From the NCBI GenBank assembly GCA_016933675.1, contig JAFGAM010000105.1:1-52974 (forward strand): 52,974 nucleotides of DNA, given 5' to 3'. Source of the DNA: Candidatus Anaeroferrophillacea bacterium. GTDB taxonomy: Bacteria; Desulfobacterota; Anaeroferrophillalia; Anaeroferrophillales; Anaeroferrophillaceae. Positions 4,457 through 49,707 of the stretch are shown in pieces (the first letter of the stretch is position 1; each line of letters starts with the position of its first letter). The position numbers were made by a program, and so were the translations under genes. The notes under the pieces were generated by a model that was given only the letters and a program-made list of their open reading frames with translations, did not search any database and had not been told where the DNA came from.

Positions 4457-4659
4457 AAATCGTCACTGGAAAGCGATTTTGCCGGATTCTTGAAATGGAG
4501 GGATGGGAATTGCTGCGGATCAGGGGAGGTCAACATATTTGCGCCAGGGCGGGAAACGAAAGCAGAATTTCCGAACCGGTTTATGGTACTAATCCGCTCA
4601 AGGCAGGGTTGCAAAGGTTTCTGATGAAGACTGCCGGCATTGAGGAAAGTGATTTGTAA
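4453..4659 (+). CDS. hicA: HicA-family mRNA interferase-like protein with a substituted catalytic His
   Basis: 68 residues, dsRBD-like HicA fold: [25 protein letters not shown] then QHIC, and an end ([21 protein letters not shown]) that fits the family. Characterised HicA toxins have G-S-H with an essential His. Here the triplet is G25-G26-Q27, and the next residue is His28. If the alignment is right, the catalytic His is replaced by Gln. It starts with GTG at 4453 overlapping the hicB stop (GTGA). Its TAA stop overlaps the ATG of the following AAA ATPase gene (TAATG), which is unusual for a toxin-antitoxin pair. Confidence 0.82.
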
Positions 4660-5570
4660 TGTCCGCATCTGATGATTCATCACCCGCCCCGCAGCGCCCC
4701 ATCGACGACTACCTGATTCGCGCGGAGCCCTTCTACCTGCCGGTGGCCGGCGAGGTGGAACTGTTTCTCGCCGCCGGCCGCGAACGTCTGCCGGTGATGC
4801 TCAAGGGGCCTACCGGCTGCGGCAAGACCCGCTTCGTCGAGCACATGGCCTGGCGCCTGGGCCGGCCGCTGATCACCGTTTCCTGCCACGAGGATTTGTT
4901 CGCCGCCGATCTCGTCGGCCGCTATCTGCTCACCGGCGACGAGACCGTCTGGATGGACGGCCCGCTGACCACCGCCGTGCGCCACGGCGGCATCTGCTAC
5001 CTCGACGAGGTGGTGGAGGCGCGCAAGGACACCACCGTGGTCATCCACCCCCTGGCCGACGACCGCCGCGTGCTGCCGGTGGACAAGCGCGGCGAGGTGG
5101 TTCCGGCTCATCCCGATTTCATGCTCGTCATTTCCTACAACCCCGGCTACCAGTCGGTGCTCAAGGATCTGAAACAGAGCACCCGGCAGCGGTTCGTGGC
5201 GCTGGAGTTCGATTATCCCGAACCGGAGGCCGAGGCGCGGATCGTCGCCGCCGAAAGCGGGGTCGATGCCGCCACCGCCGCCCGCCTGGTGGCGCTGGGC
5301 GGCAGCATTCGTAATATTCGTGAGCAGGGTTTGGCCGAGGGTGCCAGCACCCGCCTTTTGATCTACGCCGGCCAGCTTATCGTCCAGGGCATTGCGCCGC
5401 CGGTGGCCTGCCGGGCCGCCGTTGCCGGGCCGCTTACCGACGATGCCGGCCTCCAGGAAACCCTGGAAGAGATCATCGGCGACCTGTTCGATGCCGATGA
5501 CAATGGTGAAATCGCTGCCGCTGTAACCGATCAAACCGATGACGGTTTCGCCGATGCACGCGACGCGTGA
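4659..5570 (+). CDS. MoxR-type AAA+ ATPase (CbbQ/NirQ/NorQ family)
   Basis: 303 residues. Walker A is GPTGCGKT (about residues 50-57), Walker B is ICYLDEV (about 111-117), and the sensor region VISYNPGYQ plus the arginine-containing STRQRF segment match the CbbQ/NorQ clade of MoxR ATPases. These work with a VWA protein (CbbO/NorD) to remodel metalloenzymes such as Rubisco or NO reductase. The gene directly precedes a VWA gene, the expected partner. No target enzyme is encoded in the window. The ATG overlaps the hicA stop, and a GAGGAAAG ribosome binding site lies inside hicA. Confidence 0.9.
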
Positions 5571-5618
5571 CCGCAATTTTACGTTCTGATTCCTTCACCT
5601 GCCCGGATCAAGGCCTTG

Positions 5619-8600
5619 ATGGCGGCAACCCCCGTCATGTGTCAGGGGCCTGACGAAGGGCTTTGTTGCGACGCCACCAATATTGTTATGTCGAAGCCCC
5701 GTCAACCAGACGATGACCAGTCTGCCGCCGCTTTGCATCCGGCCGCCGCTGCCGTTTTTCAGTCTTCGTCGCCGGCTACCGATTCCTTCGATCTGCTGAC
5801 CGTTCTCGAGCCCCTGTTCCTGCTCGATGCGGAGTTTTCCGCGCAACTTTATCATGACCTCGCCGGGCGAAAGCCGCCGCCTGCGGCGGCGGAACTGGAA
5901 CTTTTGGTGAATCATGCCGCCGGCTGGCTTGCAGAGCAGCCGGAGCTGGGCCGCGCCGTGGCCGCCGGGCTGGCGCGGCTCGCTGGCCGGGTGGCGCCGC
6001 CGGTGCAGGAATCCTATGCCCGGGCAGTGGAGAGCGGCCGGCGGATCACGCCCCATCTGGGCCGCTTCGTCGCCGACAAGTTCGTCGCCGTCGCCGCGGC
6101 CGGCGATCCGGGGCTGCTCGCCGGTGCCCGCGATCTGCTGGCGGCCGTTGGCCCCTGGGGCCCATATCCGCTGGGCCAGGTGATGAACGCCTTCCTTGCG
6201 GTGCTCACCGGCGCGCCACACGAACACGCCGCCATCTTTCTCGATGCCATGTTCAGTGCCCTCGATCAGGGTATGGATGAACGCGGCCTGGTGCGTTACG
6301 CCCCCCTGGTGTCCCGCGGCCTGCTGTTTGCCGCCGATGACCGCCGTGCCTTCCAGGCGCCGCCGCTGCGGCGTGTTGCCGCCCGCGATTACCGGCTCGT
6401 GCAGGCCTATCTCACCGGGATCGAGCAGGGCGCGGTCCACCTGTCGCCGGCCCACCTCGATATCTTTGTCGACCGGGCGCTGGCCCAGCCGGACAGCGAT
6501 CGTGCCGCCCGGTTTCTTGCCCTCGAATCGCGCCGGGGTATTGCCTCCTGCCGTGAGTTGCAGACGGTGGTGCCCTTCACCGCCGTGGCCGCCGCGCTGC
6601 AGCGATATCTGCAGGCCCGCGGTGCCGCGGACATTGGCGTCCGCACCATCGACCATCTGCCCCCCGTCCGTCGCCATGCCGATGACGGTGCCTGCACCGA
6701 CGGCGGCGTCATCTATCTGCCGCGGGAACTGGACCGTGCCGCGACGGTGGCGGAAAACCGCCGTTTCTACCGGCTCCTCGCCGGGCTCGAACTGGGATAC
6801 ATCGAAGCTGGCAGCTTTGATTTCGATCTTGAGCGCCTGTGCGACCTGGCCGCCGGAGTGATGGGTGCGAGGCACCCCCTGTTTGCCATGTCCCGGGATA
6901 ATGACGATGACTGTCGGACTGCCGGCGGAAAAATGGGAACCGGTTATGGTAATGGGGTGGATGAGGATTTCGACGGGAGGAGCAACGGTGCCGCATCAAA
7001 GTCGTGCAGCGTGGGGGCGGCGGTTGCGGGGACTTCAGCGTTGCGGCAACCGGCAGCCACGCCGCCGCCGACTGCCGGGGTTGACGGCACGGTACCGAAC
7101 GCTTGCGTAACCCGGGATGCGTTGGTCCCCACGGCTTCATCCGTGTCCGCGGTCCCGTCTCCTTCCGTGCCCCTGCCCGGCTGGCCCCCGGAAGCCCGGT
7201 CCGACGATTTTTACCGCTTCCTTACCCGCTTTCCGCTTCCCGGTGTCGCCGCCGAGCTGCTGGCCCTGGTGGAGGAAGTGCGGATGCTTGCCGCACTCCA
7301 TCGCCGCTACCCCGGCTTCGCCGCCCGTGCCCGCCGGGCGCTGGCGGACGCCTGGCGTCGTGAGGCGGCGACCCATGCCGCCGATTCCGGCCGGGGGTTC
7401 TGGTTCAGGCTTTACGGCCGGCTGGTGCTGGAGGTGGATCCGGGTATGGTGCCGGACGGAGATGGAACCGGTGCTGAGGCAGCCGCGTCATGTATCCCGA
7501 AGGGAGGTTATCCGGTTCCGGATCTCACCACCGCAGGTTGGGTGGCATCGAAACCAGCCCCGGTGGGCTCCTCCACCATGATGAACGTATCGGCAATGGA
7601 TTGTCGGGAATCAGAGACGCAGGCAAACGATGTATCGGCAGCGGCTATTCCGGCAACCGGCAGCCCGCCGTTACCGGTCGATTTGTCGGTGACTTCCATC
7701 CTGTGCCGTGAACTGATGGTTCATGCCGTCATGCCGTCCCTGGTCGAGCGCTCGGCGGCGGTGACCGCGGCGGCGTATGCCGCGGTGCTTCCCCTGCTGC
7801 CGTCGGCGGCGGTCGATGTTGCCGGCGGCGTGGTCTATCCCGCGGGCCGGCGGCTCCGTTTCGATCTCGCCGCCGCCGCCCGCCACCGCGAACTGGAGCG
7901 GGCGCACGAGGTGCAGGAATCTCTGGCCGCGGGCGGTATCGACTCCTACCGCGCCGATCTTGCCGAGATCATCCGCCAGATGGCGGCGGGCCTGGATGCG
8001 GCCGGGTTCAAGATGGAACTGCTGGCCGGCGGCAAACTGCGAGTGCCGGCAGGGGTCGACCTGCGGGCGGTGCTGGACGGGGTCGATCTCGAATCATTCT
8101 TCGCCCGCGATGACTCCGGTACCGCGGCGCGGGAGCTGGATCTGCAGGTGCCGACCTTCTGGTATGACGAGTGGAGTGAGGGTGTGCATGACTATCTGCG
8201 CCGGCACGTCAAGCTGCTGGAACACCAGCGGGTGGGACACGATCTCGATTTCTATCCGGCGGTGCTGGCTGAGCGCCGCGGGCTCATCCGCCGTATCCGC
8301 CGCAATTTCGAGCTGTTGCGGCCCGAAGGGATGCAGATTCTGCGTCACTGGCCCGACGGCGATGCCTTCGATTACGACGCCCTGCTGGAGTACGCCCTCG
8401 ACCGGCGCCGCGGCCGCACGCCCTCCGACCGCCTCTACCGCAAGCGCCTGAAGGTGGAGCGTGACGTCGCGGTCTATCTGCTGGTGGACGTCAGCGGCTC
8501 GACGAAAAAGCCGGTGGCCGCCAGCGCAAAAACGGTGCTGGCGGTGGAGAAGGAGGCCATCGTCCTTTTCTGCGAGGCCCTGGAGCGGGTGGGGGACAGC

Positions 8601-31530: not shown

Positions 31531-32067
31531 ATGAGCAAGAAACAGCGTCGCGGGCTGGTCATCGTCAACACCGGCCACGGCAAGGGCAAGACCACCGCCG
31601 CGCTCGGAACGGCGTTCCGCGCCGCCGGTCACGGCTTCAACATCCTCGTTGTCCAGTTTATCAAGGGATCATGGAAGTACGGCGAGCTGGAGGCGGCGAA
31701 ACGGTTCGACAACCTGCATATCGAGCCCATGGGCAAGGGGTTCGTCAATCTCGGTGGCGCCGCGCCCGACCTGGCCGATATCGAGCTGGCGGCGGCCACC
31801 TGGGACCGTTGCGCGGCGGCGATCCTCTCGGAGGACTACGACCTGGTGATCTGCGATGAGGTCAACTACGCCGTTACCTACGGTCTGTTGCCGGTGGCGC
31901 GGGTGCTGGAGACCCTGGCGCAGAAGCCCGAATCGGTGCACGTCATTCTCACCGGCCGCGACGCCCGGCCGGAGATCATCGAGCGCGCCGATCTGGTGAC
32001 CGAAATGAGGGAGATCAAGCATCCCTACAAGGCGGGGGTCTCGGCCCAGCGGGGGATTGAATTCTGA
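31531..32067 (+). CDS. cobO: Cob(I)yrinic acid a,c-diamide adenosyltransferase (CobO/BtuR type)
   Basis: 178 residues. The P-loop GHGKGKTT near residues 15-22 and the VVQFIKGSWKYGE, DLVICDEVNYAV and LTGRDARPEI blocks are diagnostic of the CobA/CobO/BtuR family. It transfers the 5'-deoxyadenosyl group of ATP to the corrin cobalt. Its TGA overlaps the ATG of the next gene (TGATG). Confidence 0.96.
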   Translation: MSKKQRRGLVIVNTGHGKGKTTAALGTAFRAAGHGFNILVVQFIKGSWKYGELEAAKRFDNLHIEPMGKGFVNLGGAAPDLADIELAAATWDRCAAAILSEDYDLVICDEVNYAVTYGLLPVARVLETLAQKPESVHVILTGRDARPEIIERADLVTEMREIKHPYKAGVSAQRGIEF

Positions 32068-32786
32068 TGGCCGCCGTCGGCGACTTCCTCGGCTATGTCC
32101 ATGTCCGCGAGCCCGATGTCGGTCTGGCCCTGGATTACGTGCTTACCGCCGGTATCACCGCCGGTCGCCTGATCCTGGCGCTGCCCGATTTTTCGCCGAT
32201 ACTCGACCGGGTGCTGCCGGCCGGGCAGCGGCTCGAGGATTTGGCGGCGCATTTCTTCGCCGCGCCGACCGCGGTGGCAGTGGAAACCCGGGAGGTGACC
32301 GGGGAGTTGAAGATCTTTCCGGTGGAGGCGTCCAAAAGCTGGAATGATGTCGTCTGCCTGCTGCCCCACGGTGGTGATTGCAGCGGCCGGGATGCCGGCG
32401 ATCACTGGTCGGCGCTGTGCATCCGCAAGCCGGACTACCGCCGGCTGGCGGCGCTGGCGGCGGTGCGGGCCGAGCTCACTGAACTGCGGGCCGCCGTTGC
32501 CGGTGCCGATGCCGCCTGGCTGGGGAATGGCAGCTTCGAGGAGGTGGTCCTGGCGGCCGTGAGGCGGGCGCAGGAGAAGCGGGGCTATGCCCATTTTGTC
32601 ACCCTGCTGGCCGCGGCTCCCGGCTTCCGTGATCTTGCCTGCCGCCTGATGCGCGTCAAGGAGTTCGGCCTGCCGGGTTGCGGACCGTTCGTCGCCCGTG
32701 CGGTACTCGGCCGTCTGCACGCGGTTTTTCCCGGCCAGTTTCACGCCGGCCTGACGCTGGTCCACCGGCTCGCCGAGGGGCAGTGA
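32067..32786 (+). CDS. Unrecognised protein encoded between cobO and the BtuF-like gene
   Basis: 239 residues, no signal peptide and no membrane segment. I do not recognise any family. Visible features are an N-terminal hydrophobic beta-rich half (LGYVHVREPDVGLALDYVL), a block with two cysteines (VVCLLPHGGDC), a third Cys in ALCIRKPDYRRL, and a helical C-terminal half. TGATG overlaps join it to cobO upstream and to the BtuF-like gene downstream, so it is tightly built into the cobalamin operon. A role in corrinoid handling or remodelling is inference from position only. Confidence 0.7.
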   Translation: MAAVGDFLGYVHVREPDVGLALDYVLTAGITAGRLILALPDFSPILDRVLPAGQRLEDLAAHFFAAPTAVAVETREVTGELKIFPVEASKSWNDVVCLLPHGGDCSGRDAGDHWSALCIRKPDYRRLAALAAVRAELTELRAAVAGADAAWLGNGSFEEVVLAAVRRAQEKRGYAHFVTLLAAAPGFRDLACRLMRVKEFGLPGCGPFVARAVLGRLHAVFPGQFHAGLTLVHRLAEGQ

Positions 32787-33739
32787 TGCCGTTGTTGCCG
32801 TGCCCCCTTCGCTGCCGCTTCAGCCGCCGGTGCCGCCGGTTGCCGGGGCGGATGCCGTTCCTTGACCTCGCCTTTGCCGCCGCCGTTTTCCTCTCGGCTT
32901 GCGCCGCCGGGCCCGTGCGTGCCGCCGTTGTGACCGACGAGCTGGGCACCGAAATGACCATCCCCGACGCCCCCCGGCGCATCGTCGCCCTGGTGCCCAG
33001 CGTCGCCGAGATCCTCTTCTCCCTGGGTCTCGATGAGCGTATCGCCGGGGTGACCGATTTCGCCACCTGGCCGCCGGCGGCGAAGGCCAAGCCCCGGGTA
33101 GGCAGCTTTTTCAATCTCAACCTGGAGAAGATCATCTCCCTGGAGCCTGACCTGGTGATCGCCAGTCGCGAGGGGCGCCAGGAGGAGATCATTGCCTCGC
33201 TGCGGGAGTTTTGCATTCCGGTCTATCGGGTCAACCCTCGCAGTCTGGCGGATATCTACGCCACCCTCACCGGCCTCGGGGAGATCACCGGCACCCTCGA
33301 GCGCGCCCAGCGGGTGATCATCGAGATGAAGCACCGCGCCGGGGACGTCACCCGCCGGGTCGCCGGGCAGCCGATGCCGCGGGTATTTTATCAGGTGGGG
33401 GTCGATCCCATCGTCACCGTCAACGGTACCACCTTCGCCGCCGACCTCATCCGGCTGGCCGGCGGCCAACTGGTGACCGCCGGGAATCCGGTGCAGTATC
33501 CCCGTTATCCGGTGGAGCGGGTGATCGCCGACAATCCCCAGGTGATCATCATCTCTTCCATGTCGCCGACCACCAACTACGACTGGCTGGTGGGCACCTG
33601 GAAGCGCTGGACCGCCATCGACGCGGTGCGTCGTGAACGGATCTTCGTTATCGACGCCGATATTGTCGACCGTCCCTCGCCGCGGATCGTCGAGGGCCTG
33701 CGGCGGATTGCGAAGATGCTGCATCCCGAGGCATTCTGA
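32786..33739 (+). CDS. btuF: Cobalamin ABC transporter substrate-binding lipoprotein (BtuF-like)
   Basis: About 317 residues from the ATG at 32786. After an Arg/Cys-rich start, the hydrophobic LAFAAAVFLSAC (about residues 27-38) ends in a lipobox, so it is probably lipid-anchored; the ATG at 32852 is an alternative start. The binding-protein fold begins RRIVALVPSVAEILFSLGLDERIAGVTDF, typical of BtuF/FecB proteins, and ends ERIFVIDADIVDRPSPRIVEGLRRI. With the neighbouring permease, ATPase and cobalamin genes, a corrinoid ligand is likely, though siderophore binding uses the same fold. Confidence 0.88.
   Translation: MPLLPCPLRCRFSRRCRRLPGRMPFLDLAFAAAVFLSACAAGPVRAAVVTDELGTEMTIPDAPRRIVALVPSVAEILFSLGLDERIAGVTDFATWPPAAKAKPRVGSFFNLNLEKIISLEPDLVIASREGRQEEIIASLREFCIPVYRVNPRSLADIYATLTGLGEITGTLERAQRVIIEMKHRAGDVTRRVAGQPMPRVFYQVGVDPIVTVNGTTFAADLIRLAGGQLVTAGNPVQYPRYPVERVIADNPQVIIISSMSPTTNYDWLVGTWKRWTAIDAVRRERIFVIDADIVDRPSPRIVEGLRRIAKMLHPEAF
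33715..33739 (+). repeat. 25-bp direct repeat, copy 1 (end of the BtuF-like gene)
   Basis: GATGCTGCATCCCGAGGCAT plus TCTGA, the last codons and stop of the BtuF-like gene. A second copy lies at 33788-33812. Confidence 0.8.
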
Positions 33740-33787
33740 GGGCACATCGCCGCGTACGCCGCGCATCTCCAGCACCCGGATCGTCCG

Positions 33788-33812
33788 GATGCTGCATTCC
33801 GAGTCCTTCTGA
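33788..33812 (+). repeat. 25-bp direct repeat, copy 2 (intergenic)
   Basis: Repeats the end of the BtuF-like gene with 3 changes (C to T, G to T, A to C), including the TGA stop, 73 bases further on. It would encode MLHSESF-stop in place of MLHPEAF-stop. The 175-base gap around it holds no gene. Confidence 0.8.
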
Positions 33813-33914
33813 TGGGGGCGGGGAAGGGATGTCGGGATGTCGGCAGCGGGTCCGGTTGCCGGGGCTGGGCCGCCGAACATGCATGCCAGCGGCGAGCAGG
33901 AAGGAGAATCTTTC

Positions 33915-34169
33915 ATGACTGATACACCCGCCGCCGCGCCGCCGGCAGAATCGGCCGCGACTTCGGTGGCAACCGGGGATGAAGCCGCGGAAATTATCAA
34001 CCAGCGCGAGGAGAACGAGCGCCGGGGGATTACCGGCCGCCGCTACCTCACCTGTGAGAAGTTCGGTGACGTGCTGGAGGTGCGCGAGGGCCTGGCCTGC
34101 CGCCATCCCAAGGTGACGTGCAAATACCGGCTGTCGTGCCCGATCTATCAGATCGGCCGGAATGAGTGA
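33915..34169 (+). CDS. Small four-cysteine protein in the cobalamin locus
   Basis: 84 residues from the ATG at 33915, which has an AGGAAGGAG ribosome binding site. The first 45 residues are an Ala/Glu-rich, probably disordered segment. The last 35 hold four cysteines, in YLTCEKFG, GLACRHPKVTC and YRLSCPIYQ, and could bind a metal or an iron-sulfur cluster. I do not recognise the family. It sits between the BtuF-like gene and cobQ on the same strand. Confidence 0.65.
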   Translation: MTDTPAAAPPAESAATSVATGDEAAEIINQREENERRGITGRRYLTCEKFGDVLEVREGLACRHPKVTCKYRLSCPIYQIGRNE

Positions 34170-34361
34170 TGACGGGAGACGGAATTCAGGAGACCGGTCC
34201 AGCTTCTCCGTTGTCTGCCCGTGCGTGCCGCCCGCAGACCGGCCGACCTGAGTTGCTCACCGTAAGGCGGTATACGCCTTGACCTTTCAGGAGGGAAGCG
34301 CCGCGGAGCCGGAGGATGGTCCCATCATGGAATGTTTGTTGAGGTGGTTGCGGAGGATGTG

Positions 34362-35981
34362 GTGAGCCGGTTGCCGTTCGTTATCTCCCGGGCGCCCGAC
34401 GGCGGCGCCCGGCTGCTCATGGTTCAGGGTACCGGATCCAGCGTCGGCAAGAGCGTTCTGGTGGCCGGGCTGTGCCGGCTGTACGCCCGCGAGGGGGTGC
34501 GGGTGGCGCCGTTCAAGGCCCAGAACATGGCGCTCAACTCCTTCATTACCGCCGCCGGCCGCGAGATGGGCCGCGCCCAGGTGGTTCAGGCCGAGGCCTG
34601 CGGTCTGGCGCCGCGGGTGGACATGAACCCGGTGCTGATCAAGCCCAACAGCGATGTCGGCGCCCAGGTCATCATTCACGGCCGGCCGGTGGGCAACATG
34701 TCGGCGGTGGACTACCATGCTTACAAACGCACCGCCTGGAAGGCGGTGGTCGAGAGCCTCGGGCGCCTGCGTGCCGAATTCGACCTCGTCATCATCGAGG
34801 GTGCCGGCAGTCCGGCGGAGATCAACCTGCGCGACGGCGACATCGTCAACATGGGGCTGGCGACGGCCGTCGGCGCCCCGGTGCTGCTGGCCGGGGACAT
34901 CGACAAGGGCGGTGTCTTCGCTTCCCTGCTGGGGACCATGGAACTGTTGGCGCCGGAAGAGCGCCGCCTCGTCAAAGGGTTTGTCATCAACAAGTTTCGC
35001 GGCGATGTCAAGCTGCTCAAGCCCGGCCTCGACTTCATTGCCGGACGCTGCGGCGTCCCGGTGGCCGGGGTGGTGCCCTGGTTCACCGATCTCTATCTTC
35101 CCGAGGAGGACGGCGTTGCGGTGGAGGGCTATGGCCGCGGTGGCGCCGCCGGCGGCCCGGGCGCCGATGATGGCGCCGCGAGTCTGGTGATCGGCGTCGT
35201 CAAGCTGCCGCATATCTCCAATTTCACCGATTTCGATCCCCTGCTGCACGAACCCGGGGTGCGACTGGACTACCTGCTGCCCGGCGACGAGCCGGACGGC
35301 TGCGACGTTCTCGTTATCCCCGGCAGCAAGAATACCATCGATGATCTCTGTCGTCTGCGCACCTGCGGCTGGGACAACCGGCTGAAAAGGTTCGCCGCCG
35401 CCGGCGGGATGGTCATCGGTATCTGCGGCGGCTACCAGATGCTCGGCCGCGAGATCACCGATCCCCACGGGGTGGAAAGCGGCCGCGGCCGGGAGCCGGG
35501 ATTCGGTCTGCTGCCGGCGGTCACCCAACTGGTGCCGGAGAAGGTGACGGTCCAGTGCCGTGGCACGGTGCTGCATGACGGCTTCGGCGCCGGCGGCGCC
35601 GCGGTGGCGGGCTACGAGATCCACATGGGCCGTACGGTGATCGATGCCGACCTCGATTCCGGTGCCGCGCCGCTGCTGCGCATTGCCGATGCTGCCGACG
35701 GCCATCCGGACGGCGCCGTCGCCGCCGGCGGCATGGTCTGGGGCACCTATCTTCACGGTATCTTCGATAACGACGATTTCCGCCGCCGCCTGCTGGCCTT
35801 TCTCCGCCGCCGCACCGGCAAGGCCCATGCCGTCGCCGGGATGGATTTCGCCGACCGCAAGGCCCGGGGGCTGGACGGGCTCGCCGATCTGCTGGCGGCG
35901 CATCTCGATCTCGAACTGGTGGCCGCGGCTGTCGCCGCCGGCCCCATGGCGGTGGAGCCGGAGGCGGATGGGCGCGTCTAG
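34362..35981 (+). CDS. cobQ: Cobyric acid synthase CobQ/CbiP
   Basis: About 539 residues from the GTG at 34362, which is preceded by GGAGG; an ATG at 34332 gives ten more. The dethiobiotin-synthetase-like N-terminal domain has MVQGTGSSVGKSVLVAGLCRLY and APFKAQNMALNSF, and DLVIIEGAGSPAEINLRDGDIVNMG is diagnostic. The C-terminal glutamine amidotransferase has the nucleophile in VIGICGGYQMLG and the His in GTYLHGIF. It amidates four corrin side chains. A small AAGGCG/CGCCTT stem (34264-34280) lies upstream. It overlaps btuC by 14 bases. Confidence 0.97.
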   Translation: MSRLPFVISRAPDGGARLLMVQGTGSSVGKSVLVAGLCRLYAREGVRVAPFKAQNMALNSFITAAGREMGRAQVVQAEACGLAPRVDMNPVLIKPNSDVGAQVIIHGRPVGNMSAVDYHAYKRTAWKAVVESLGRLRAEFDLVIIEGAGSPAEINLRDGDIVNMGLATAVGAPVLLAGDIDKGGVFASLLGTMELLAPEERRLVKGFVINKFRGDVKLLKPGLDFIAGRCGVPVAGVVPWFTDLYLPEEDGVAVEGYGRGGAAGGPGADDGAASLVIGVVKLPHISNFTDFDPLLHEPGVRLDYLLPGDEPDGCDVLVIPGSKNTIDDLCRLRTCGWDNRLKRFAAAGGMVIGICGGYQMLGREITDPHGVESGRGREPGFGLLPAVTQLVPEKVTVQCRGTVLHDGFGAGGAAVAGYEIHMGRTVIDADLDSGAAPLLRIADAADGHPDGAVAAGGMVWGTYLHGIFDNDDFRRRLLAFLRRRTGKAHAVAGMDFADRKARGLDGLADLLAAHLDLELVAAAVAAGPMAVEPEADGRV

Positions 35982-37035
35982 AACCACGCTCTATTTTCTC
36001 GTTCTCGGCGTCTTCCTGCTGCTGATGGTGGTGGTCGCCGCCGGCATGGGCGCCGCCAACCTGCCGCTGGGAGACGTTGCCCGGGTGCTGCTGGAAGGCC
36101 TGCCCGGCGTGCCGACCGCCGGCGGCGGTATCCCGGCCAGTACGCGGATGATCGTTCTCGATGTCCGTCTGCCGCGCATCGCCGTGGCGATGCTGGTGGG
36201 GGCGGCGCTGGGGATGTCCGGGGCGGTGTTTCAGGGTCTGCTGCTCAATCCGCTGGCCGACCCCTTCACCATCGGGGTTTCCGCCGGCGCCGCGTTCGGC
36301 GCCACCCTGGCGATCATGCTCCAGGGGTTCGGTTTTCTCGCCGTCATGCCGTTCCTCGGCCACCCGGCGGTGCTGCCGGTGTTCGCCTTCGGCGGTGCGG
36401 TACTCTCCCTCGTTTTTGTCTACATCATCGCCCGTGATCACGGCAACATCATGCCCGAGAGTCTGATCCTCGCCGGGGTCATCGTCGCCTCGTTCCTCTC
36501 CGCGCTCATCAGTTTTCTCAAGAGCATCGCCGGTGAAACCCTTTCGGCCATCGTTTTCTGGATCATGGGCAGCCTCTCGGGGCGTATGTGGCACCATGCC
36601 GCGATCCTGCTGCCCTACGTGTTCGTCTGCGGGCTGATCATGCAGGCCGGCGCCCGCCATCTGAACCTCATCGCCATGGGGGATGCTACCGCCCTGCAGC
36701 TCGGCGTCGACGTCCAGCGGGTGCGCCGGCGGCTGCTGGTGGCCGGCTCCCTGCTCACCGCGGCGGCGGTGTCCATCAGCGGCGTCATCGGGTTTGTCGG
36801 CCTGGTGGTGCCGCACATCAACCGGCTGATCATCGGTCCCAACCACCGTGTTCTGATCCCCGCCTCGGCGCTGCTGGGCGGCGGCATCCTCGTTCTTGCC
36901 GATACCCTGGCACGTACCGTCGCGGGCGCCACCGAGATCCCCGTTGGGGTGGTCACCGCCCTGCTGGGGGCGCCGTTCTTCTGCTACATCTTCAAGCGCC
37001 GGTTCCACTCCGGCCGCGGCGGCGACGGGGCATGA
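35968..37035 (+). CDS. btuC: Cobalamin/iron-siderophore ABC transporter permease (BtuC/FecCD family)
   Basis: 355 residues, about ten membrane segments. LPRIAVAMLVGAALGMSGAVFQGLLLNPLADPFTIGVSAGAAFGA is the classic FecCD/BtuC signature, as are GVIGFVGLVVPHINRLIIGPNHR and VTALLGAPFFCYI at the end. It forms the translocation pore and contacts the BtuF-like protein. The start at 35968 lies inside the cobQ 3' end with GGAGG upstream, and it overlaps the ATPase gene by ATGA. Confidence 0.95.
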   Translation: MGASRTTLYFLVLGVFLLLMVVVAAGMGAANLPLGDVARVLLEGLPGVPTAGGGIPASTRMIVLDVRLPRIAVAMLVGAALGMSGAVFQGLLLNPLADPFTIGVSAGAAFGATLAIMLQGFGFLAVMPFLGHPAVLPVFAFGGAVLSLVFVYIIARDHGNIMPESLILAGVIVASFLSALISFLKSIAGETLSAIVFWIMGSLSGRMWHHAAILLPYVFVCGLIMQAGARHLNLIAMGDATALQLGVDVQRVRRRLLVAGSLLTAAAVSISGVIGFVGLVVPHINRLIIGPNHRVLIPASALLGGGILVLADTLARTVAGATEIPVGVVTALLGAPFFCYIFKRRFHSGRGGDGA

Positions 37036-38033
37036 GCTTGGCGCGAGAAAATACCCCGACGGGGAGAAACATGCCGGAGGGAAGCAGTACGGCGGCCACG
37101 GCGGCGCGGCGGGGTGTTTCCGGCCATGCGGCTGCGGGCAGGGATGCTTCAGCGGCTGCGGCTCCAGCCCGTGAGGTTCTGTTTCGGGAGGCCGCCCTCG
37201 AGGCTTCGGCCCCGGGGGTTTCTGGCTCCGAAGCGCGCCACGACGAGTTGCTGCGGGTCCGGAATCTCTCCTGCGGTTACGGCCGCCGGCGGGTGCTGGA
37301 GGGGTTGGATTTCAGCCTCTGGTCGGGATTCTTCTGCGGCCTGCTGGGGCCCAACGGTTCGGGAAAGTCGACCCTGATCAACAATCTCTGCCGGGTGTAC
37401 GAGCCCCTGGGTGGCAGCATTGAGCTGGCGGGCCGGGACATCCGCGGTTACGACCGCGCCGCCCTGGCGCGGCAGGTGGCGGTGGTGCCCCAGGATACCC
37501 ATGTTTCCTTTCCCTTCAGTGTTCGCGAGGTGGTGGCCATGGGCCGCAACCCGCACCTGCGCGGGTTGTTCTCCAAGGGCTACAAGGAGGACGACCCGGT
37601 GGTCGACCGGGTGCTGGAGGAGCTGGGCATCGCTCACCTGGCGCCGGCAGTTATCACCCGCATCAGCGGCGGTGAACGTCAGCTGGTACTGCTCGCCCGG
37701 GCGCTGGTGCAGGAGCCACGGCTACTGTTGCTGGACGAGCCCACCTCCAATCTCGACATCCGTCACGCGGTGCGTATCCTGCGACTGGTGGAGGAGCGGG
37801 TGCGTACCGGCGGTCTGGCGGTACTCGCCATCTTCCACGACCTCAACCTCGCGAGCGTGTTTGCCGACTATCTCTTCATGCTCAAGGACGGCGGCATCGC
37901 CTGCCAGGGGGAGACCCGCGAGGTGATCCGCCGCGAGGTGCTGCGGGAGGTCTTCGGCACCGAGCTGCTGGTCTACACCCCGGATGAGCTGGGCTGGCCG
38001 CAGGTGGCGGTCCCGCCGGCCGGCTTTTGCTGA
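37032..38033 (+). CDS. btuD: Cobalamin/iron-siderophore ABC transporter ATPase (BtuD family)
   Basis: 333 residues. Walker A is GPNGSGKST (about 110), the signature is ISGGERQL and Walker B is LLLLDEPTSNLD (about 230), all intact. The first 70 or so residues are an Ala/Gly/Arg-rich extension not found in typical BtuD proteins (about 250-270 residues); it may be disordered, or the true start may be downstream. The start overlaps the btuC stop. It is the last gene of the locus. The 217-base gap that follows holds no gene. Confidence 0.93.
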   Translation: MSLARENTPTGRNMPEGSSTAATAARRGVSGHAAAGRDASAAAAPAREVLFREAALEASAPGVSGSEARHDELLRVRNLSCGYGRRRVLEGLDFSLWSGFFCGLLGPNGSGKSTLINNLCRVYEPLGGSIELAGRDIRGYDRAALARQVAVVPQDTHVSFPFSVREVVAMGRNPHLRGLFSKGYKEDDPVVDRVLEELGIAHLAPAVITRISGGERQLVLLARALVQEPRLLLLDEPTSNLDIRHAVRILRLVEERVRTGGLAVLAIFHDLNLASVFADYLFMLKDGGIACQGETREVIRREVLREVFGTELLVYTPDELGWPQVAVPPAGFC

Positions 38034-42400: not shown

Positions 42401-42731
42401 CATAACTTCGACACGCTGATCGATGATGTCGATCCCCGGCCGATCGGTACCGGGATCGTGCGAGGAGGTTTCGTCAACGCGGGGCTCTGTTCCGGTGCCG
42501 GGCCGCCGCGGAAATCCTGGTGGTCGCTGCGGATGTTAATTGTTTGTTAGGAGTGTCAATATATCTGTTTCTCCGCCGATAGGTATGGGGTTCGGAGAGC
42601 GAAGCCGGTAAACGCTGCCGGCGACCGGCGGCAGGCCGGATCCGGACGTTGCCGTCCCGCCCGCATACGGGCGGGAAACATGCCGGCGCCGGGGATATAA
42701 TCGGTGCCGGGATATGGGAGGTTGCGGAAAC
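42401..42731. other. 331-base gap before the EAL-GGDEF gene
   Basis: No gene can be supported. A TATAAT hexamer at 42696-42701 could be a -10 box for the EAL-GGDEF gene (30 bases upstream), but no matching -35 is evident. An AT-rich patch lies at 42536-42575. Confidence 0.4.
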
Positions 42732-44573
42732 ATGGACGGTGAATCAGGCGCCTGCTTGGCGTCGACAATACCCTGGCGGGAGCTGCTGGCGCCGGTCGAT
42801 TATGCGTTCCAGCCCATCGTCAATATCCATACCGGTGTCTGTCACGGCTACGAGGGGCTGTTGCGGAACGTCGAACAGGCGGGATTTCCGTCCATCAACG
42901 CCGTCTTCGATCAGGCCTATGAGGACCATTCCCTGGTGCCGGTGTGTACCATTCTGCGGGAAAAGGTACTGGAGAAGTACGTCACCATTCCCTGGGCCCG
43001 GGAGACCAAACTGTTCTACAATATCGACAACCGGACCTTCGAGGAAAACGGCAACCCCGGCCCGCAGACCGAGGGGGCGCAGTCGATGCTCAAACGCTTC
43101 GGCCTGACCAACGGCGTGTTGTGCATCGAGATCTCCGAACGCCATCCGCTGCCGGACATGGAGGCCGCCATGTTCCGCATGAACCGCTGGCGCAAAAGCG
43201 GCTTCCAGATTGCCGTGGACGACTGCGGCACCGGGTTTTCCGGCCTGCAATTGCTGTATTACCTGAAGCCGGATTATGTCAAGATCGACCGCTTCTTCAT
43301 CCGCGACATCGAACGCGACCAGACCAAGCGGCTATTTGTTGCCAGTATCGTCAATATCGCTCACCTGATGGGGGCGACGGTGATCGCCGAAGGGGTCGAG
43401 ACCGAGAAGGAGTATTACAGCTGTCGCAATATCGGCTGCGATCTGGTACAGGGCTACCTCATCCAGTATCCCAGTCGGGATATCGGAGATCTGCGGCGCT
43501 GCTACGACGAGATGACGCGGCTGGGGGCCGCCGACCGCCGCTACCGCGACAGCAAGGATCACGAACTCATCCAGCAGGAGATCGAATACATCGAACCGAT
43601 TTCCGCCGCTACCCCCCTGTTGCGGGTGCTGGATATCTTTCGCCAAAGTACGAGTCAGACGTTCTTTCCGGTGGTCAACGAGCGCCGTGAACCCCAGGGA
43701 ATCATCCGTGAGTCGGCGATCAAGGATCTGGCCTATTCGCGCTACGGCCGCTATCTGCTCGAAAACCGGACCATCAGCATGTCGCTGGATGGCTTCATTG
43801 GCCGGCTGCCGACGGTGGATGTCTATTCTTCGGCGGAAAAGCTGGTGGATCTCTATGCCATGAACTCGAAGATCGAGGGCGTCCTGGTGGTGGACGGGAT
43901 GGAATACATCGGCTTCCTCAGCGCCCAGTCGCTGCTCAAGATCCTCAACGCCAAGAACCTCGCTCTGGCCCGGGACCAGAATCCGCTCTCCGGCCTGCCG
44001 GGAAACAAGCTGATCTACGAATATGTTTCCCGCGCCCTGCTGGATCGCGATGTTTCCTACGCCCTGGTCTATTTCGATTTCGATAATTTCAAGGCCTACA
44101 ACGATACCTATGGCTTCCGTCACGGCGACCGGGTGATCCTCCTGTTCACCGAACTGCTGAAGTCACGCAGCCAGGATGCCGAACGCTTTGCCGGGCACAT
44201 CGGCGGCGACGATTTTTTCATGGGGATTCGAGATCTGGCGGCGGCGAGGGTACGCGACGAGGTAGTGGAGATCATCGAGATCTTCCGCCGTGATGTGGAG
44301 AGTTTTTATGATCCCGATGCTATTCGCCGGGGATTTATCCTCGCCAAGGATCGCGAGGGCGGGATGCGGCGTTTCCCGCTGATCACGGTCAGTGCCGCGG
44401 TGTTGATCCTGCCCCCCGGAATGAACCGGATCTATTCGCCCGAGGAGATCGGCAACCTCATCGCCGGCGCCAAACAGGAGGCGAAGCGTTCGCCGGACAA
44501 GATGTGTATCCGCAGCCTCAAGCATTTCACCGGCAAGGAAAGTCCGGGCGAGTTCGGCGCCTGCTGTGCCTGA
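42732..44573 (+). CDS. EAL-CBS-GGDEF c-di-GMP signalling protein
   Basis: 613 residues from the ATG at 42732 (GGGAGG ribosome binding site; an ATG at 42714 is possible). The N-terminal EAL domain keeps the catalytic set: GYEGLLR, NIDNRTF, IEISER, VDDCGTGFSG, KIDRFFIRDI and AEGVET, so it is probably an active phosphodiesterase. Residues about 290-420 form a tandem CBS-like ligand-binding region. The C-terminal GGDEF-like domain has HIGGDDF, not GGDEF, and the usual I-site is unclear. It may act as a regulatory GTP-binding module. Confidence 0.9.
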   Translation: MDGESGACLASTIPWRELLAPVDYAFQPIVNIHTGVCHGYEGLLRNVEQAGFPSINAVFDQAYEDHSLVPVCTILREKVLEKYVTIPWARETKLFYNIDNRTFEENGNPGPQTEGAQSMLKRFGLTNGVLCIEISERHPLPDMEAAMFRMNRWRKSGFQIAVDDCGTGFSGLQLLYYLKPDYVKIDRFFIRDIERDQTKRLFVASIVNIAHLMGATVIAEGVETEKEYYSCRNIGCDLVQGYLIQYPSRDIGDLRRCYDEMTRLGAADRRYRDSKDHELIQQEIEYIEPISAATPLLRVLDIFRQSTSQTFFPVVNERREPQGIIRESAIKDLAYSRYGRYLLENRTISMSLDGFIGRLPTVDVYSSAEKLVDLYAMNSKIEGVLVVDGMEYIGFLSAQSLLKILNAKNLALARDQNPLSGLPGNKLIYEYVSRALLDRDVSYALVYFDFDNFKAYNDTYGFRHGDRVILLFTELLKSRSQDAERFAGHIGGDDFFMGIRDLAAARVRDEVVEIIEIFRRDVESFYDPDAIRRGFILAKDREGGMRRFPLITVSAAVLILPPGMNRIYSPEEIGNLIAGAKQEAKRSPDKMCIRSLKHFTGKESPGEFGACCA

Positions 44574-44754: not shown

Positions 44755-45825
44755 TCATTGCACCAGCGATCGCACGTCCACCTGCCCCACGGCCTTGATC
44801 CAGCGGTCGGCCATCAGGTCGGTGGGCACCACCAGCTTGAAGCGGCCGTCCTCGTACAGCTTTTCGCCGTTGCGGTGGTCGGCCAGCAGCAGCCGGTCGG
44901 CGTCTTTGCCCAGCAGCACCTCGCCGACGGAGAGCAGTGAGCGGTAGCCGTCGGGCGACCAGACGACGATCACCGCCGTCAGATCGTCGCAGATACCGAC
45001 CGATTGCAGCAGTTCCTGAAACGAGATGCCGCTGAAGGCGAGTTCACCCGGGCCGTGGTATATCCGGCCGTCTCCCACCTGGTAAATATTGATCTCATGC
45101 CGCTCGAGGCCGGCGGGCAGCGCGGTCAGGGTCATGGGCTTGGCCACCTGGCCGACGATGCTCATCGCCGCGGCATACAGCGGCTTCAGATTCCGGTCAC
45201 CGGGTTTCGCCGGCAGTTCCACTACCTCGATCTCGACGATATCCTCGATCCAGCGGTCGGCCCGGCGGTCGCCGGCGGTGATCAGCTTCGGATAGGGGAC
45301 CGTGCGTCCAAGCGGTGCCAGCCGCGTTTCGTAAACCGATGCATCCTCGTGGCAGCGCCGGCAGTTGCCGTGAGCCGGGTGCAGGGGAGTGCCGGCGTAT
45401 GCCAGAATGACGTTTCCCGGCTGGCGGTAGAAGATTTCGCCCCAGGACAGCGCCACCTGCTGCCCGCTCCGGTTTCTGACCAGCACGGCGGTGTCGATGG
45501 GCTTTTTGAAGCCGGGATCCTTTTTGGTGATGCCGGCCAGCTCCAGGAGGTTTTTGAGCGGCACGCCGCGGTAGGAGAAGACCCCGCGGTAGGAACCGTC
45601 GCGGCTGATGTCGTTGCCCTGCAGGGCCTGGGATTCCATCGCCGTCAGCATTGTCCGGGTGAGTTCGAGGGGGTGTCGCACGGCGCCGGTGATACTGATC
45701 ATCACCGGCGCGGGGGCGCCGCCGCCGAAAGCCGCCGCCGGCAGCAGCATGACCGCCAGCAGGAAGATGATGCCCGTCGTCCAGCGGGCAGATCTGTTGG
45801 GGTGGGTGGGGGGTGAAGATATCAT
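44755..45825 (-). CDS. Secreted protein with two sulfite-oxidase-fold domains and one CXXCH heme motif
   Basis: 356 residues with an N-terminal signal peptide (IIFLLAVMLLPAAAFG, about 19-34). Domain 1 (about 41-205) begins MISITGAVRHPLELTRTML and domain 2 (about 220-356) begins MSIVGQVAKPMTLTALP; both resemble the molybdopterin (SUOX) fold, with YRGVPLKNLLELAGI and FSGISFQELLQSVGI at matching places. A c-type heme motif C155-R-R-C158-H159 sits in domain 1. The only other cysteine is C279, and the Cys ligand of molybdenum in true SUOX enzymes is not evident, so it may be a binding or electron-transfer protein. A GGAGG ribosome binding site precedes the ATG. The family is not recognised beyond the fold. 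Confidence 0.75.
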   Translation of the reverse strand: MISSPPTHPNRSARWTTGIIFLLAVMLLPAAAFGGGAPAPVMISITGAVRHPLELTRTMLTAMESQALQGNDISRDGSYRGVFSYRGVPLKNLLELAGITKKDPGFKKPIDTAVLVRNRSGQQVALSWGEIFYRQPGNVILAYAGTPLHPAHGNCRRCHEDASVYETRLAPLGRTVPYPKLITAGDRRADRWIEDIVEIEVVELPAKPGDRNLKPLYAAAMSIVGQVAKPMTLTALPAGLERHEINIYQVGDGRIYHGPGELAFSGISFQELLQSVGICDDLTAVIVVWSPDGYRSLLSVGEVLLGKDADRLLLADHRNGEKLYEDGRFKLVVPTDLMADRWIKAVGQVDVRSLVQ

Positions 45826-45918
45826 TGTAAGCCTCCATGTTTCGGTTCAACGTGCCGTCGGTGGCGGAAAAAACTCGGGAGAGCTCGCCCGGTTGTCCGG
45901 GAATAACGGGAAAACGGT

Positions 45919-45957
45919 AAAAAAACGTGTCCATCCGGGTTGCCCCGGATGGACACG
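45919..45957 (-). terminator. Rho-independent terminator after the TonB receptor gene
   Basis: A perfect 14-bp stem, CGTGTCCATCCGGG (45926-45939) with CCCGGATGGACACG (45944-45957), and a 4-base loop. Read on the minus strand it is followed directly by seven T (45925-45919). It ends the receptor transcript and separates it from the SUOX-like gene. Confidence 0.92.
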
Positions 45958-46031
45958 CAGCGTACGGACGACGGACCGGCGGGATGATTACCGCGCGTCC
46001 CCGTTGTGAGCCGCGGTCCGTCAGACGTGGC

Positions 46032-48026
46032 TCAGAAGCGGTAGCGCAGTTCCGCGAAGGCGGTCCGACCGGCCTGCGGATAGCCCTCGCTCAGTTCGTA
46101 TTCCTCGTCGAAGAGGTTCTGGACCCCGGCCTCGATGTCGAGGTTGTCCATGACATCGAACATTACCTTGGCGTCGATAATGACGAAGCCATCGAGGTTG
46201 TTCCAGGTGCCGTCGAGATCCTGTTCCCAGCGGTCGTCATGCCACTGGAATTCGGCGAAGAAGCGGATGCGGTCGGTGATTGTCACCGTGTCGCTGATAT
46301 AGACCTTGTTATCGGATACCTCCTCGATGTGGTCGCTGGTGCGGTCTGATGAGCGGTCCTCGGCATCCAGCCAGGTATAGCTGGCGACGATCTCCTGGCG
46401 CGGCAGGATGGTGGTGCGGATCGAGGCCTCGATCCCCTGGAAGCGGGATTCGCCGATGTTGTCCTGCATGTCGGAACCGTCGGGCAGGTAGCGCTCGACG
46501 ATCAGATCTTCGACGTCGGAATAGAACAGCGCCAGGGAGAGCCGGGTGTGGTCGCCAAGGTCGTGGTCGACGCCGAGTTCGTAGTTGATCGCGGTCTCCT
46601 TCTCCAGGTCAGGGTTCGGAACGGTGTTGTCGAGATAGCTGGAGTAGAGTTCCTGCAGGGTGGGGAAGCGGGTCTTGCGGCCCACCGAGGCGTGGAATAC
46701 GGTGCGGTCGGTGAGGGCGAAGCGGATGCCGGCCTGGGGGTTGAAGGTGTCGTCGTCGTCCCGTACCTTCGCGCCGTTGGCATATTCCGGATCCTGCATG
46801 TCGTAGCTGATGCCGAGGACCAGGGAGAGGCGGTCGGTGATGCGGATGTCATCCTCCAGCCCCAGCGACCAGGTGGTGGCCTCGTACCGTTCCCACGGGG
46901 TGCTGTAATCGTCCTGTTCCTCGTGGACGTCTTCCTTGTAGTGGAACGACAGGCTCAGCTTCTGGCGCTTGAGCTGTTCGCTGCGCAGCGTCATGGAGCC
47001 GCCCCAGGAGTAGTCGTCGTAGACGCTGTGGAAGGCGTAGCGGGCGAACTGGGTGTCGTAATCGGCGCTGTCGTAGGCGTTGAGGGTGTTGTCGTAGTCG
47101 TCGCGGAAGAGCCGGGTTTTGAGTTCCAGACCGTCCATCAGTTTCGAGTCGCCGATGAGGTAGGTGGTGAGCTTGTCCCAGTTGGTGAACTTCCAGTATT
47201 TCCGCATCGGCGGTTTGGTGGCGAAGGTGTGGGGCGGTACGTCGCGCTCCGCCTCGACGACGTTCACGCCGATGGCGTATTCATGCCCTTCAGCCGGCGT
47301 CCAGCCTACCTTCACCGAGCCGGTGAAATTTTCGCGGGAGGAGTTGGTGCGGGTGTCGCCGTGCTCGTTGCGGTCATCGTCGAAGTTGTCCGGCAGGTTG
47401 AAGCTCCGCTGGTCAAGGTAGCTGGCGCCGAGCATCAGGTACCAGTTTTCCTGCCGGGTGCCGACATTGGCCGCGGTGCGCCAGCCGTCCGCTTCCCGGA
47501 CGCCGAGACTGACGTCGCCCTCGAAGGCCCGTTCCGGCCGCCGGCTCACCAGGTTGATCACCCCGCCCATGGTGTTGCAGCCGTAGAGTACCGAGCTGAC
47601 CCCCTTGGTGACGGTGATCCGCGCCAGGTTGTCGGTGGACAGCACGCCGGCATCGACGTAGCCGTCGTGGGGTACCGAGATGGGGATGCCGTCCAGGAAG
47701 ATGGGTACGTACTTCTGGTTGAAGCCGCGGACGGTGAAGTAATGTTCATTCTTGGTGCCGATGGTGGAAACGATGCCGGGCAGGATGTTGAGTGCCTCGC
47801 CGACGGTGACGCTGTTGGTCAGTTCGAGCTGCTCGATGTCGATGGTCTCGCTGGTGCTCACCTGGGTGACGGTCTCGTCGTGGCCGGTGACGACCACCTC
47901 GCCCAGGGTGAAGACGCTGCCGCCGGCGGCGGAATCCCGATCCTCGGCGGCGGTAGCCGGCAGGGCCGTGCCCAGGGTCAGGGCGACGATCAGCCAGGCG
48001 GCGGTCAGCAAGCGGTTGCGTTTCAT
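46032..48026 (-). CDS. TonB-dependent outer-membrane receptor
   Basis: 664 residues from the ATG at 48026, which has an AAGGAGG ribosome binding site. The signal peptide (LLTAAWLIVALTLGTALPATAA) is followed by a TonB-box-like FTLGEVVVTGHD. The plug domain has the LNILPGIVSTIGTKNEHYFTVRGFNQKYVPIFLDGIPI block, and the beta-barrel ends in Phe (ELRYRF) with the NLFDEEYELSEGYPQAGRTAF signature. It imports a metal complex or similar substrate; the ligand is unknown. It is open in frame with the upstream ResB-like gene, with no stop between. A terminator follows. Confidence 0.93.
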   Translation of the reverse strand: MKRNRLLTAAWLIVALTLGTALPATAAEDRDSAAGGSVFTLGEVVVTGHDETVTQVSTSETIDIEQLELTNSVTVGEALNILPGIVSTIGTKNEHYFTVRGFNQKYVPIFLDGIPISVPHDGYVDAGVLSTDNLARITVTKGVSSVLYGCNTMGGVINLVSRRPERAFEGDVSLGVREADGWRTAANVGTRQENWYLMLGASYLDQRSFNLPDNFDDDRNEHGDTRTNSSRENFTGSVKVGWTPAEGHEYAIGVNVVEAERDVPPHTFATKPPMRKYWKFTNWDKLTTYLIGDSKLMDGLELKTRLFRDDYDNTLNAYDSADYDTQFARYAFHSVYDDYSWGGSMTLRSEQLKRQKLSLSFHYKEDVHEEQDDYSTPWERYEATTWSLGLEDDIRITDRLSLVLGISYDMQDPEYANGAKVRDDDDTFNPQAGIRFALTDRTVFHASVGRKTRFPTLQELYSSYLDNTVPNPDLEKETAINYELGVDHDLGDHTRLSLALFYSDVEDLIVERYLPDGSDMQDNIGESRFQGIEASIRTTILPRQEIVASYTWLDAEDRSSDRTSDHIEEVSDNKVYISDTVTITDRIRFFAEFQWHDDRWEQDLDGTWNNLDGFVIIDAKVMFDVMDNLDIEAGVQNLFDEEYELSEGYPQAGRTAFAELRYRF

Positions 48027-48860
48027 CTTAATTTCCTCCTTTTCGGGTTGCGATCCGGAACCTGCCGCTGCCGGCGGGTTCCAGGTGGCGATGCCATAGC
48101 AGAACGTGAACAGGATCAGGGCATGGAAGAGCCACACCACCGGCCGGGCGCAGGGCGCCCGGGTGACCAGCAGTCTGACGCCGGGGCTGTTGCTGCCGGG
48201 TGCCGGCGGGGTGAATCCCAGCAGGGTCACCTGGACGTCGCCCCGCCGCAGGGGGCGGTAGGTGGCGATCCGGCCGGCGAGCAGCCGGCTGCCGTTCCGT
48301 TCGAGAACGATATCGGCGGTGTTGCGGGCGTAATCGAAGTCGTGACGGGTCCAGCGGCGCCGCGGTTTCGTCAGGATTGCCGGGTCGCTGCGGAAATCGA
48401 TCCCGGTGACCGCCAGGTTCCAGGCGGGGTTGGTGCCGGGATGAATGGATTCGCCGGCCCGAAGGGCGACCGGCGGTGGTTTCCAGCCCAGAAAGAAGCC
48501 CGCGCCGTGGGCCAGCAACAGCAGGCCGAAGGTGAGGTGGATGAGAAACATCAGCACGATCCGGGGGTGAGTTCCTCCCCGGCCGGGGGTGAAGCGCCGC
48601 CAGGTGCAGATAGTGAGGTTGAGCGCCAGCAGCGCCATGAGCAGGACGAGGCCCAGAAACCAGATTTTCAGTCCATCGCCGACGCCGGCATCGTGCAGCA
48701 GCCAGTCCTGCACCAGGCCGTGGTTCATGATGCGGGTCACTTCATGGCCGCCGCCGCGGTGGACCAGCGGCAGAAAGCCGGGAAACCAGAAGCACAGGGC
48801 GGCCAGCAGCCAGGTGGTGAAGCGCAGCGAAGAGAGGCGGGAAACAGGCTTGTTCATCAT
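48027..48860 (-). CDS. ResB-like cytochrome c biogenesis membrane protein, no stop codon of its own
   Basis: About 278 residues up to the receptor start. Four membrane segments are visible: TTWLLAALCFWFPGFLPLV, IWFLGLVLLMALLALNLTI, VLMFLIHLTFGLLLLAHGAGFF and VVWLFHALILFTFCYGIATW, with a periplasmic domain between the third and fourth. This is the arrangement of ResB/Ccs1 proteins, which with CcsA attach heme to apocytochrome c. The frame continues without a stop into the receptor (48026), giving a nominal fusion of about 942 residues. Since the receptor has its own ribosome binding site and signal peptide, the boundary is at 48026; a TAA one frame away just before the receptor ATG suggests a frameshift removed the stop. 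Confidence 0.75.
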
Positions 48861-48879
48861 GACGATTCGGTACCGCGGA

Positions 48880-49623
48880 TCACGGCTTGAGCAGTTGCGC
48901 GGCGAGCATCAGGGGCCCGCCCAGCAGACCGAGAACGGCGTACCACGAAGAACCGTTGCGGCGGCTGCCGCCGGGAAGATGCAGCGCCAGCATGAGATAG
49001 ATGAGGACGGCCGAGGAGATGATGAATCCCGGCGACCACTGCCAGACGTCGGCCCAGCCGTACAGGCACCAGAGGATGCCGGTGTCTTCGGAGAGCAGAT
49101 AGAGTACCAGCGCCGCCAGCAGCGCGTTGCGTCCCTGGTGGCGGAGGATTGCCCCGGTCCCGATTTCGCCGTCTTCGGCACCGTTCCTCCGGAGCGCGGC
49201 GATGAACAGCGCCGAGGAGAAAAGTGCGGCTGCCAGGGCCAGGCGGCGGAAAACGTGGAAGGCCACCGCCGGGAGATAGACATGGTTGTAGTCGAAGCAG
49301 GGATGCGGCGCCGGCAGGATGATGGCGCCGCCGGCCATCAGCGTGGTGGCGATGGCGGCCCACCGCAGGACTGTCGTCGGTGCCGTGGTGCGCGGGCCGG
49401 CCAACAGGGTGAGCAGGCCGAGGACCATGCCGGCGCACTGCAGGGCCTCGACCGGAGTGAACACCGGCAGGACGCCGTGCCGTCGGACATGAAGCCCGAA
49501 CCAGGCACACTGCACCGCTACGGCGGCGGCCATGACGGCACGGCCGCGTCCCGGGGTCGAAAACCGGGCCAGCAGGGCGGCGGCGGCGTGCAGCATGAAG
49601 GTGGTCGGAAACAGGAAGGACAT
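48880..49623 (-). CDS. CcsA-like cytochrome c assembly membrane protein
   Basis: 247 residues with about seven membrane segments. A tryptophan-rich segment YGWADVWQWSPG (residues 188-199) resembles the WWD heme-handling motif of CcsA/CcmC, but the usual W-x-W-D-P-K-E end is S-P-G-F here. Candidate heme-ligand His residues flank it, including NHVYLP (about 114) and AFHVFRR (about 123). It lies 19 bases before the ResB-like gene, and the pair resembles a system II heme lyase. The GGGGAG ribosome binding site lies in a possible hairpin. Confidence 0.75.
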   Translation of the reverse strand: MSFLFPTTFMLHAAAALLARFSTPGRGRAVMAAAVAVQCAWFGLHVRRHGVLPVFTPVEALQCAGMVLGLLTLLAGPRTTAPTTVLRWAAIATTLMAGGAIILPAPHPCFDYNHVYLPAVAFHVFRRLALAAALFSSALFIAALRRNGAEDGEIGTGAILRHQGRNALLAALVLYLLSEDTGILWCLYGWADVWQWSPGFIISSAVLIYLMLALHLPGGSRRNGSSWYAVLGLLGGPLMLAAQLLKP

Positions 49624-49674: not shown

Positions 49675-49707
49675 TTTGCCGTTATATCAAGAATAAAATA
49701 ACGGAAA

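Follow-up and report, generated by a model that had tools for sequence, protein, structure and literature searches.

The four-gene locus described here is, as judged from its sequence, probably a ModE-controlled system for the acquisition of molybdenum and/or tungsten (Mo/W), an assignment that draws on the conservation of its genes together in relatives and on a ModE-type site. It lies in the window, the whole 52,974-nucleotide stretch of DNA analysed, which is contig C94 of G000, a 2.68-Mb metagenome-assembled genome of an uncultured Desulfobacterota bacterium that is 87% complete (G, L and C numbers denote genomes, loci and contigs, respectively). All four parts named by the first-pass annotation were found between 44755 and 49623 on the minus strand: the CcsA-like gene is transcribed first, then come the genes for a short ResB-like protein, for a TonB-dependent receptor and for SUOX-c, a secreted protein of SUOX fold that carries a CXXCH motif (Table 1). 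That annotation proposed a role in importing or sensing a substrate; uptake fits, and Mo/W, which it did not name, is now the candidate substrate.

Table 1. Features of the locus, with positions in the window
Feature	Position	Strand	Basis or detail
ModE-type palindromic putative operator, CGTTATTTTATTCTTGATATAACG	49680..49703	-	ends 56 nt before the start codon of the CcsA-like gene
Short CcsA-like membrane protein (247 aa, 8 helices, WWD-like motif, TM-His2-like H215)	48880..49623	-	profile, AF2, Pfam
Short ResB/CcsB-like membrane protein (~275 aa, small periplasmic loop, TM3 H-x9-H)	48027..48860	-	Pfam matches of family members, alignment
TonB-dependent receptor (own signal peptide, plug, barrel)	46032..48026	-	Pfam Plug 6.3e-19, barrel 5.9e-42
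Terminator-like hairpin between receptor and SUOX-c genes	45919..45958	-	15-pair stem and T-run; -32.4 kcal/mol, z -7.4
Secreted SUOX-c, two SUOX/PruR-like domains, without Mo-ligand Cys	44755..45825	-	Pfam Oxidored_molyb, AF2, Foldseek
CRRCH (CXXCH) heme-c motif, SUOX-c residues 155–159 (C155–H159)	45349..45363	-	sequence

The putative operator upstream of the CcsA-like gene is the strongest evidence bearing on the window itself, and it fits the published ModE consensus (PMC545781). It was first spotted by eye after the molybdenum hypothesis had arisen and was tested afterwards with the pattern CGNTAT-N12-ATANCG, the core of that consensus, the reversed pattern serving as a control. The exact pattern occurs once in the window, where 0.59 matches are expected if one mismatch is allowed, and three times in the whole of G000 (reversed control, 0), a second box preceding the only modE gene of the genome. 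Across 675 kb of loci, some of which overlap, almost every exact box stands directly before a system operon or before modE (reversed control, 1). Boxes precede system operons in the window and in five other genomes (G329, G352, G265, G149 and G187); modE was not detected in G265, and in G001, G006, G011 and G018 neither a box before the system nor modE was detected, which counts against the Mo/W reading. Since a ModE-type operator precedes the window locus and modE is encoded in its genome, the locus is predicted to belong to the ModE regulon. In L128 (G000:C53:33000-47000), the region 2817–7490 has the G000 modE gene and its box divergent from a redox-enzyme cluster that by eye comprises 2Fe-2S, FAD and FmdE-like proteins.

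Of the 29 carrier genomes, which were searched in full, 8 encode ModA, WtpA, TupA or ModE at a distance of at most 10 kb from the system. The 16 matches within this distance compare with 0.58 expected by chance over the 29 carriers, but the genome count is the fairer measure, because matches within one operon are not independent. By NCBIfam, ModA is found in G329 and G187, WtpA in G199, TupA in G266, G207, G352 and G149, and ModE in G329, G266, G352 and G187, the TupA and ModE matches having strong E-values but falling under the curated cut-offs; regulators with MoeA-C/PBP-like domains are found in G207 and G208. One 608-aa frame of G352 (L099:8441-10264) joins a TupA domain to SUOX-c; a ModE-type box stands directly before it, and genes for ModE and TupABC come after it. 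In G199 and G339, WtpA sits between SUOX-c and the receptor. In G011, which belongs to the same taxonomic order as the window's genome, an ABC system comes after the receptor, and the closest solved relative of known ligand of its binding protein is HI_1472/MolA, which binds molybdate and tungstate. That locus also contains DUF364, for which the published context includes tungstate and molybdate, and which has been proposed to act on pterin derivatives (PMC2954201). No ABC importer gene adjoins the system in the window, a point against Mo/W acquisition; a WtpA-like gene is present on another contig of G000.

At E<1e-50, the SUOX-c family is found in 25 of 395 Desulfobacterota genomes, spread over 14 families. 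The receptor adjoins SUOX-c in 21 of these 25 genomes, with two of the other four cut by contig ends (own count), whereas a CcsA-like or ResB-like gene lies near the system in about 14; on these counts, the receptor and SUOX-c form the core of the system and the pair is a frequent partner. System loci repeatedly contain genes for ExbB, ExbD and TonB and for an APC-type permease, the APC-family permease standing beside SUOX-c in L046, L088, L089, L091–L093, L101 and L106–L108. Within the taxonomic order to which the window's genome belongs, the same four genes are present in G001 and in G006, the SUOX gene of G006 being interrupted by a stop and a frameshift; the pair and the receptor are present in G011 and G018, with SUOX-c undetected in the former and the latter cut by a contig end. 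In the G006 SUOX-c gene (L011:8760-9750), a TAG and the frameshift lie inside the gene and part of the C terminus is missing, which reflects either a pseudogene or sequencing errors.

The recurrence of the four-gene order in other genera and families, sought as a check on the earlier claim of one system, sustains that claim. It also makes it exceedingly improbable that four unrelated genes stand side by side by chance, for which the terminator-like hairpin that splits the window cluster might be cited. Because this strong hairpin, at 45925–45958, separates the receptor and SUOX-c genes, the four genes may not share one transcript in the window.

The receptor is assigned from Pfam matches to plug and barrel and from a signal peptide recognized by eye in the sequence. 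Four relatives encode receptors in the corresponding position that are 62–67% identical to it. The first-pass annotation described the membrane pair as joined to the receptor, and the ResB-like and receptor sequences do form one open frame in the window (46032–48860); since no stop codon intervenes, the end of the ResB-like protein was set at the receptor start. They are nevertheless treated as two proteins, because the receptor has its own Shine–Dalgarno sequence (~48034–48041), start codon (ATG, 48026) and signal peptide, and because the ResB-like gene has its own stop in the relatives' loci L010–L013, the junction in L010 differing by two nucleotides. A functional fusion is therefore unlikely, and the missing stop in the window may be an assembly indel.

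SUOX-c consists of a signal peptide and two SUOX-type domains (Pfam Oxidored_molyb). With single sequences as queries, neither SUOX-c nor the CcsA-like protein had more than chance matches in the PDB, and the SUOX-c profile had no matches there, so that structure comparison was needed. The AF2 model of SUOX-c (pLDDT 88) has sulfite dehydrogenases, YedY and the Mo-free, pterin-binding PruR as its closest folds in Foldseek, the match best covered by one SUOX-c domain being PruR (7kom, TMt 0.75). The CXXCH motif is kept in 20 of the 24 tabulated family members. No conserved cysteine beyond this motif was found among 30 SUOX-c sequences, and C278, the sole cysteine of the window protein outside CXXCH, is not conserved, so that SUOX-c has no Mo-ligand cysteine. 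Pfam, AF2, Foldseek and alignment thus agree with the earlier description of a CXXCH protein with two SUOX domains and no such ligand.

The likeness to PruR, which is likewise secreted and has a SUOX fold devoid of the Mo cysteine (PMC13259868), raises the alternative that SUOX-c binds a free pterin or a pterin-based chelator and signals, as in PruR–DcpA, carrying no metal. The action on pterins proposed for DUF364 and the EAL-CBS-GGDEF gene next door would be in keeping with it. PruR, however, is a single-domain protein of ~170 aa encoded in an operon with DcpA and has neither heme nor a receptor, whereas SUOX-c has two domains, a CXXCH motif and no DcpA partner, and is often fused to TP_methylase and once to TupA. 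The GGDEF/EAL protein of the window has no evident periplasmic domain. Its gene (42714–44573) is convergent with that of SUOX-c and is not found beside SUOX-c in relatives, and PruR–DcpA signalling was rejected because this neighbour is not conserved. With the operator and the gene linkage favouring Mo/W, uptake or sensing of a pterin is improbable.

A C-terminal TP_methylase domain is present on SUOX-c, behind the signal peptide, in many genomes, the window protein not being among them. Fusions to this tetrapyrrole-methylase domain occur in L046, L048, L089, L091, L093–L096, L098, L100 and L101. Fusion to a secreted protein would place the TP_methylase fold in the periplasm, where SAM is not expected.

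Together with cobalamin biosynthesis genes near the G222 and G264 loci, these fusions suggest a tetrapyrrole and argue against the Mo/W reading. The receptor would then import a corrinoid, heme or another tetrapyrrole, and SUOX-c would be a periplasmic handler fed by the heme pair. The window itself has a corrinoid cluster (31531–38033, plus strand) of CobO-like, BtuF-like, CobQ-like and BtuC/BtuD-like genes, the binding protein of which is closest to vitamin B12-binding proteins. Its BtuF–CobQ–BtuCD part, ~7–13 kb from the system, might be taken as support, but the cluster is on the opposite strand, with unrelated genes between. Set against a tetrapyrrole are also the ModE-type operator, the TupA fusion and the absence of TP_methylase from the window SUOX-c. 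No B12 riboswitch was found at Rfam thresholds in the window or in six relatives, and cobalamin was rejected on this ground. A tetrapyrrole substrate is accordingly rated low, a little below a pterin.

The identity of the CcsA-like protein, read from profiles and a predicted model, is real but remote. Alone, it has a sub-threshold match to Pfam Cytochrom_C_asm (E 0.022), a domain matched by 8 of 17 family members (best, 4.9e-12). The profile built from the family finds CcsA/CcsBA of solved structure, with the match covering the WWD segment, and the AF2 model has as its best PDB match Helicobacter hepaticus CcsBA (7s9y, TMq 0.80), followed by CcmF. The ResB-like protein alone has no Pfam match, and Pfam ResB is matched by 3 of its 17 family members. 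Residues G182, W185, W196 and H215 are invariant across the 17 CcsA-like members, as are W53, W67, L71, N81, C85, H108, H118, P203, L213 and P236 across the 17 ResB-like members. The WWD motif is present in modified form only, W185, W196 and G182 aligning with the CcsA WWD segment and the D being replaced (WS/WN/WG). At TM-His1, the ResB-like H108 aligns with LLLHASF of 7s9y (a weak match), and at TM-His2, H215 aligns with the LHIRF histidine; given this conservation, the transmembrane heme ligands of CcsBA (PMC6299221) appear to have counterparts in the pair. In the P-His1 region, H123 of the window's subfamily is one column off and other members have Phe. No P-His2 was found, H215 being the sole conserved histidine past the WWD motif in the CcsA-like family.

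The pair may instead define a dedicated cytochrome c maturation unit that makes one custom heme protein, whatever the substrate, an alternative partly compatible with Mo/W acquisition. The CcsBA-like fold, the WWD-like motif, the conservation of both TM-His positions and the prevalence of CXXCH among the SUOX genes point this way. The missing P-His2, the uncertain P-His1 and the small periplasmic loop count against it, as do the presence of the pair beside SUOX proteins without CXXCH in G053, G147 and G265 and the occurrence of pair and receptor in G011, where SUOX-c was not detectable. In a table of 24 SUOX genes, compiled by hand and counting adjacency alone, the pair is present beside 10 and absent from 10 genes with CXXCH, and present beside 3 and absent from 1 without it, giving no correlation of the pair with the motif (Fisher p 0.6). 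The first-pass annotation held that maturation by a general system would speak against the pair's role; this applies in part, full general CcsA/ResB systems being encoded elsewhere in G001 and G006. Such a unit is thus possible but doubtful. Of the earlier proposal that the pair supplies heme to SUOX-c, the conserved transmembrane ligands remain in favour, whereas the missing P-His2 and the lack of tracking with CXXCH do not fit; attachment of heme to SUOX-c by the pair is plausible.

For Mo/W acquisition, the architecture suggests a chain from receptor through SUOX-c and a binding protein to an ABC importer. At the outer membrane, the TonB-dependent receptor would actively import an Mo/W species (an oxyanion, a thio-oxyanion or a small-molecule chelate). 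Once in the periplasm, this species would be bound by SUOX-c, a tandem PruR-like protein with a heme-c motif, which would probably free the metal through redox chemistry and hand it to a TupA, WtpA, ModA or MolA-type protein of an inner-membrane ABC importer. The CcsA/ResB-like pair would move heme across the inner membrane and load the CXXCH of SUOX-c, which is the weakest step. As a whole, ModE-regulated, TonB-dependent Mo/W uptake in which a heme-c SUOX protein reduces or unloads the metal and a dedicated mini-CcsA/ResB pair supplies the heme is a tentative scheme, rather unlikely to hold in full. The SUOX protein in this scheme would be Mo-free and would in many lineages carry a tetrapyrrole-methylase-like domain, likewise periplasmic, as a fusion partner.

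Passage of molybdate and tungstate through the outer membrane is commonly taken to be passive. The locus shares its operator type, regulator and binding proteins with the ModE regulon and ModABC, TupABC and WtpABC, but the members known so far work at the inner membrane, and no outer-membrane receptor is reported for the delta-proteobacterial ModE regulon in the molybdenum section of Rodionov 2004 (PMC545781). With the TonB-dependent metallophore and vitamin uptake systems FepA–FepBCD and BtuB–BtuFCD it has in common a plug–barrel receptor, TonB–ExbBD (in many loci) and a binding protein with an ABC importer (in several), and differs in its linkage to ModA, WtpA, TupA and ModE and in that its unit includes a CcsA/ResB-like pair and a SUOX-fold protein with a heme-c motif. 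Each SUOX-c domain has the fold of sulfite oxidase/dehydrogenase, SoxC and YedY, but without the Mo-ligand cysteine and, in the first domain, with a heme motif inside. System II CcsBA (ResB/CcsA) shares with the window pair its fold, a WWD-like motif and two TM histidines, whereas the pair is short and split, has a small periplasmic region and is missing P-His2. TonB-dependent metal uptake is already known; a form that is linked to ModE and includes a mini-CcsA/ResB pair and a heme-c SUOX protein is apparently undescribed in the open literature searched.

If Mo/W acquisition is correct, the supply of these metals limits some anaerobic Desulfobacterota enough to justify an energized, ModE-controlled receptor, plausibly with relevance to sulfidic settings, in which Mo/W are bound up in thio-complexes. 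A widespread family, labelled in Pfam solely as ‘oxidoreductase molybdopterin binding domain’, would thereby gain a function, and Mo/W acquisition would explain the presence of a heme-lyase-like pair within a metal uptake operon.

Distant SUOX-fold relatives without CXXCH are encoded in L104, L105, L115, L116 and L117. Four of these five adjoin WtpABC, ModABC or an aldehyde:ferredoxin-oxidoreductase-like gene, neighbours that suggest a wider Mo/W-linked SUOX family.
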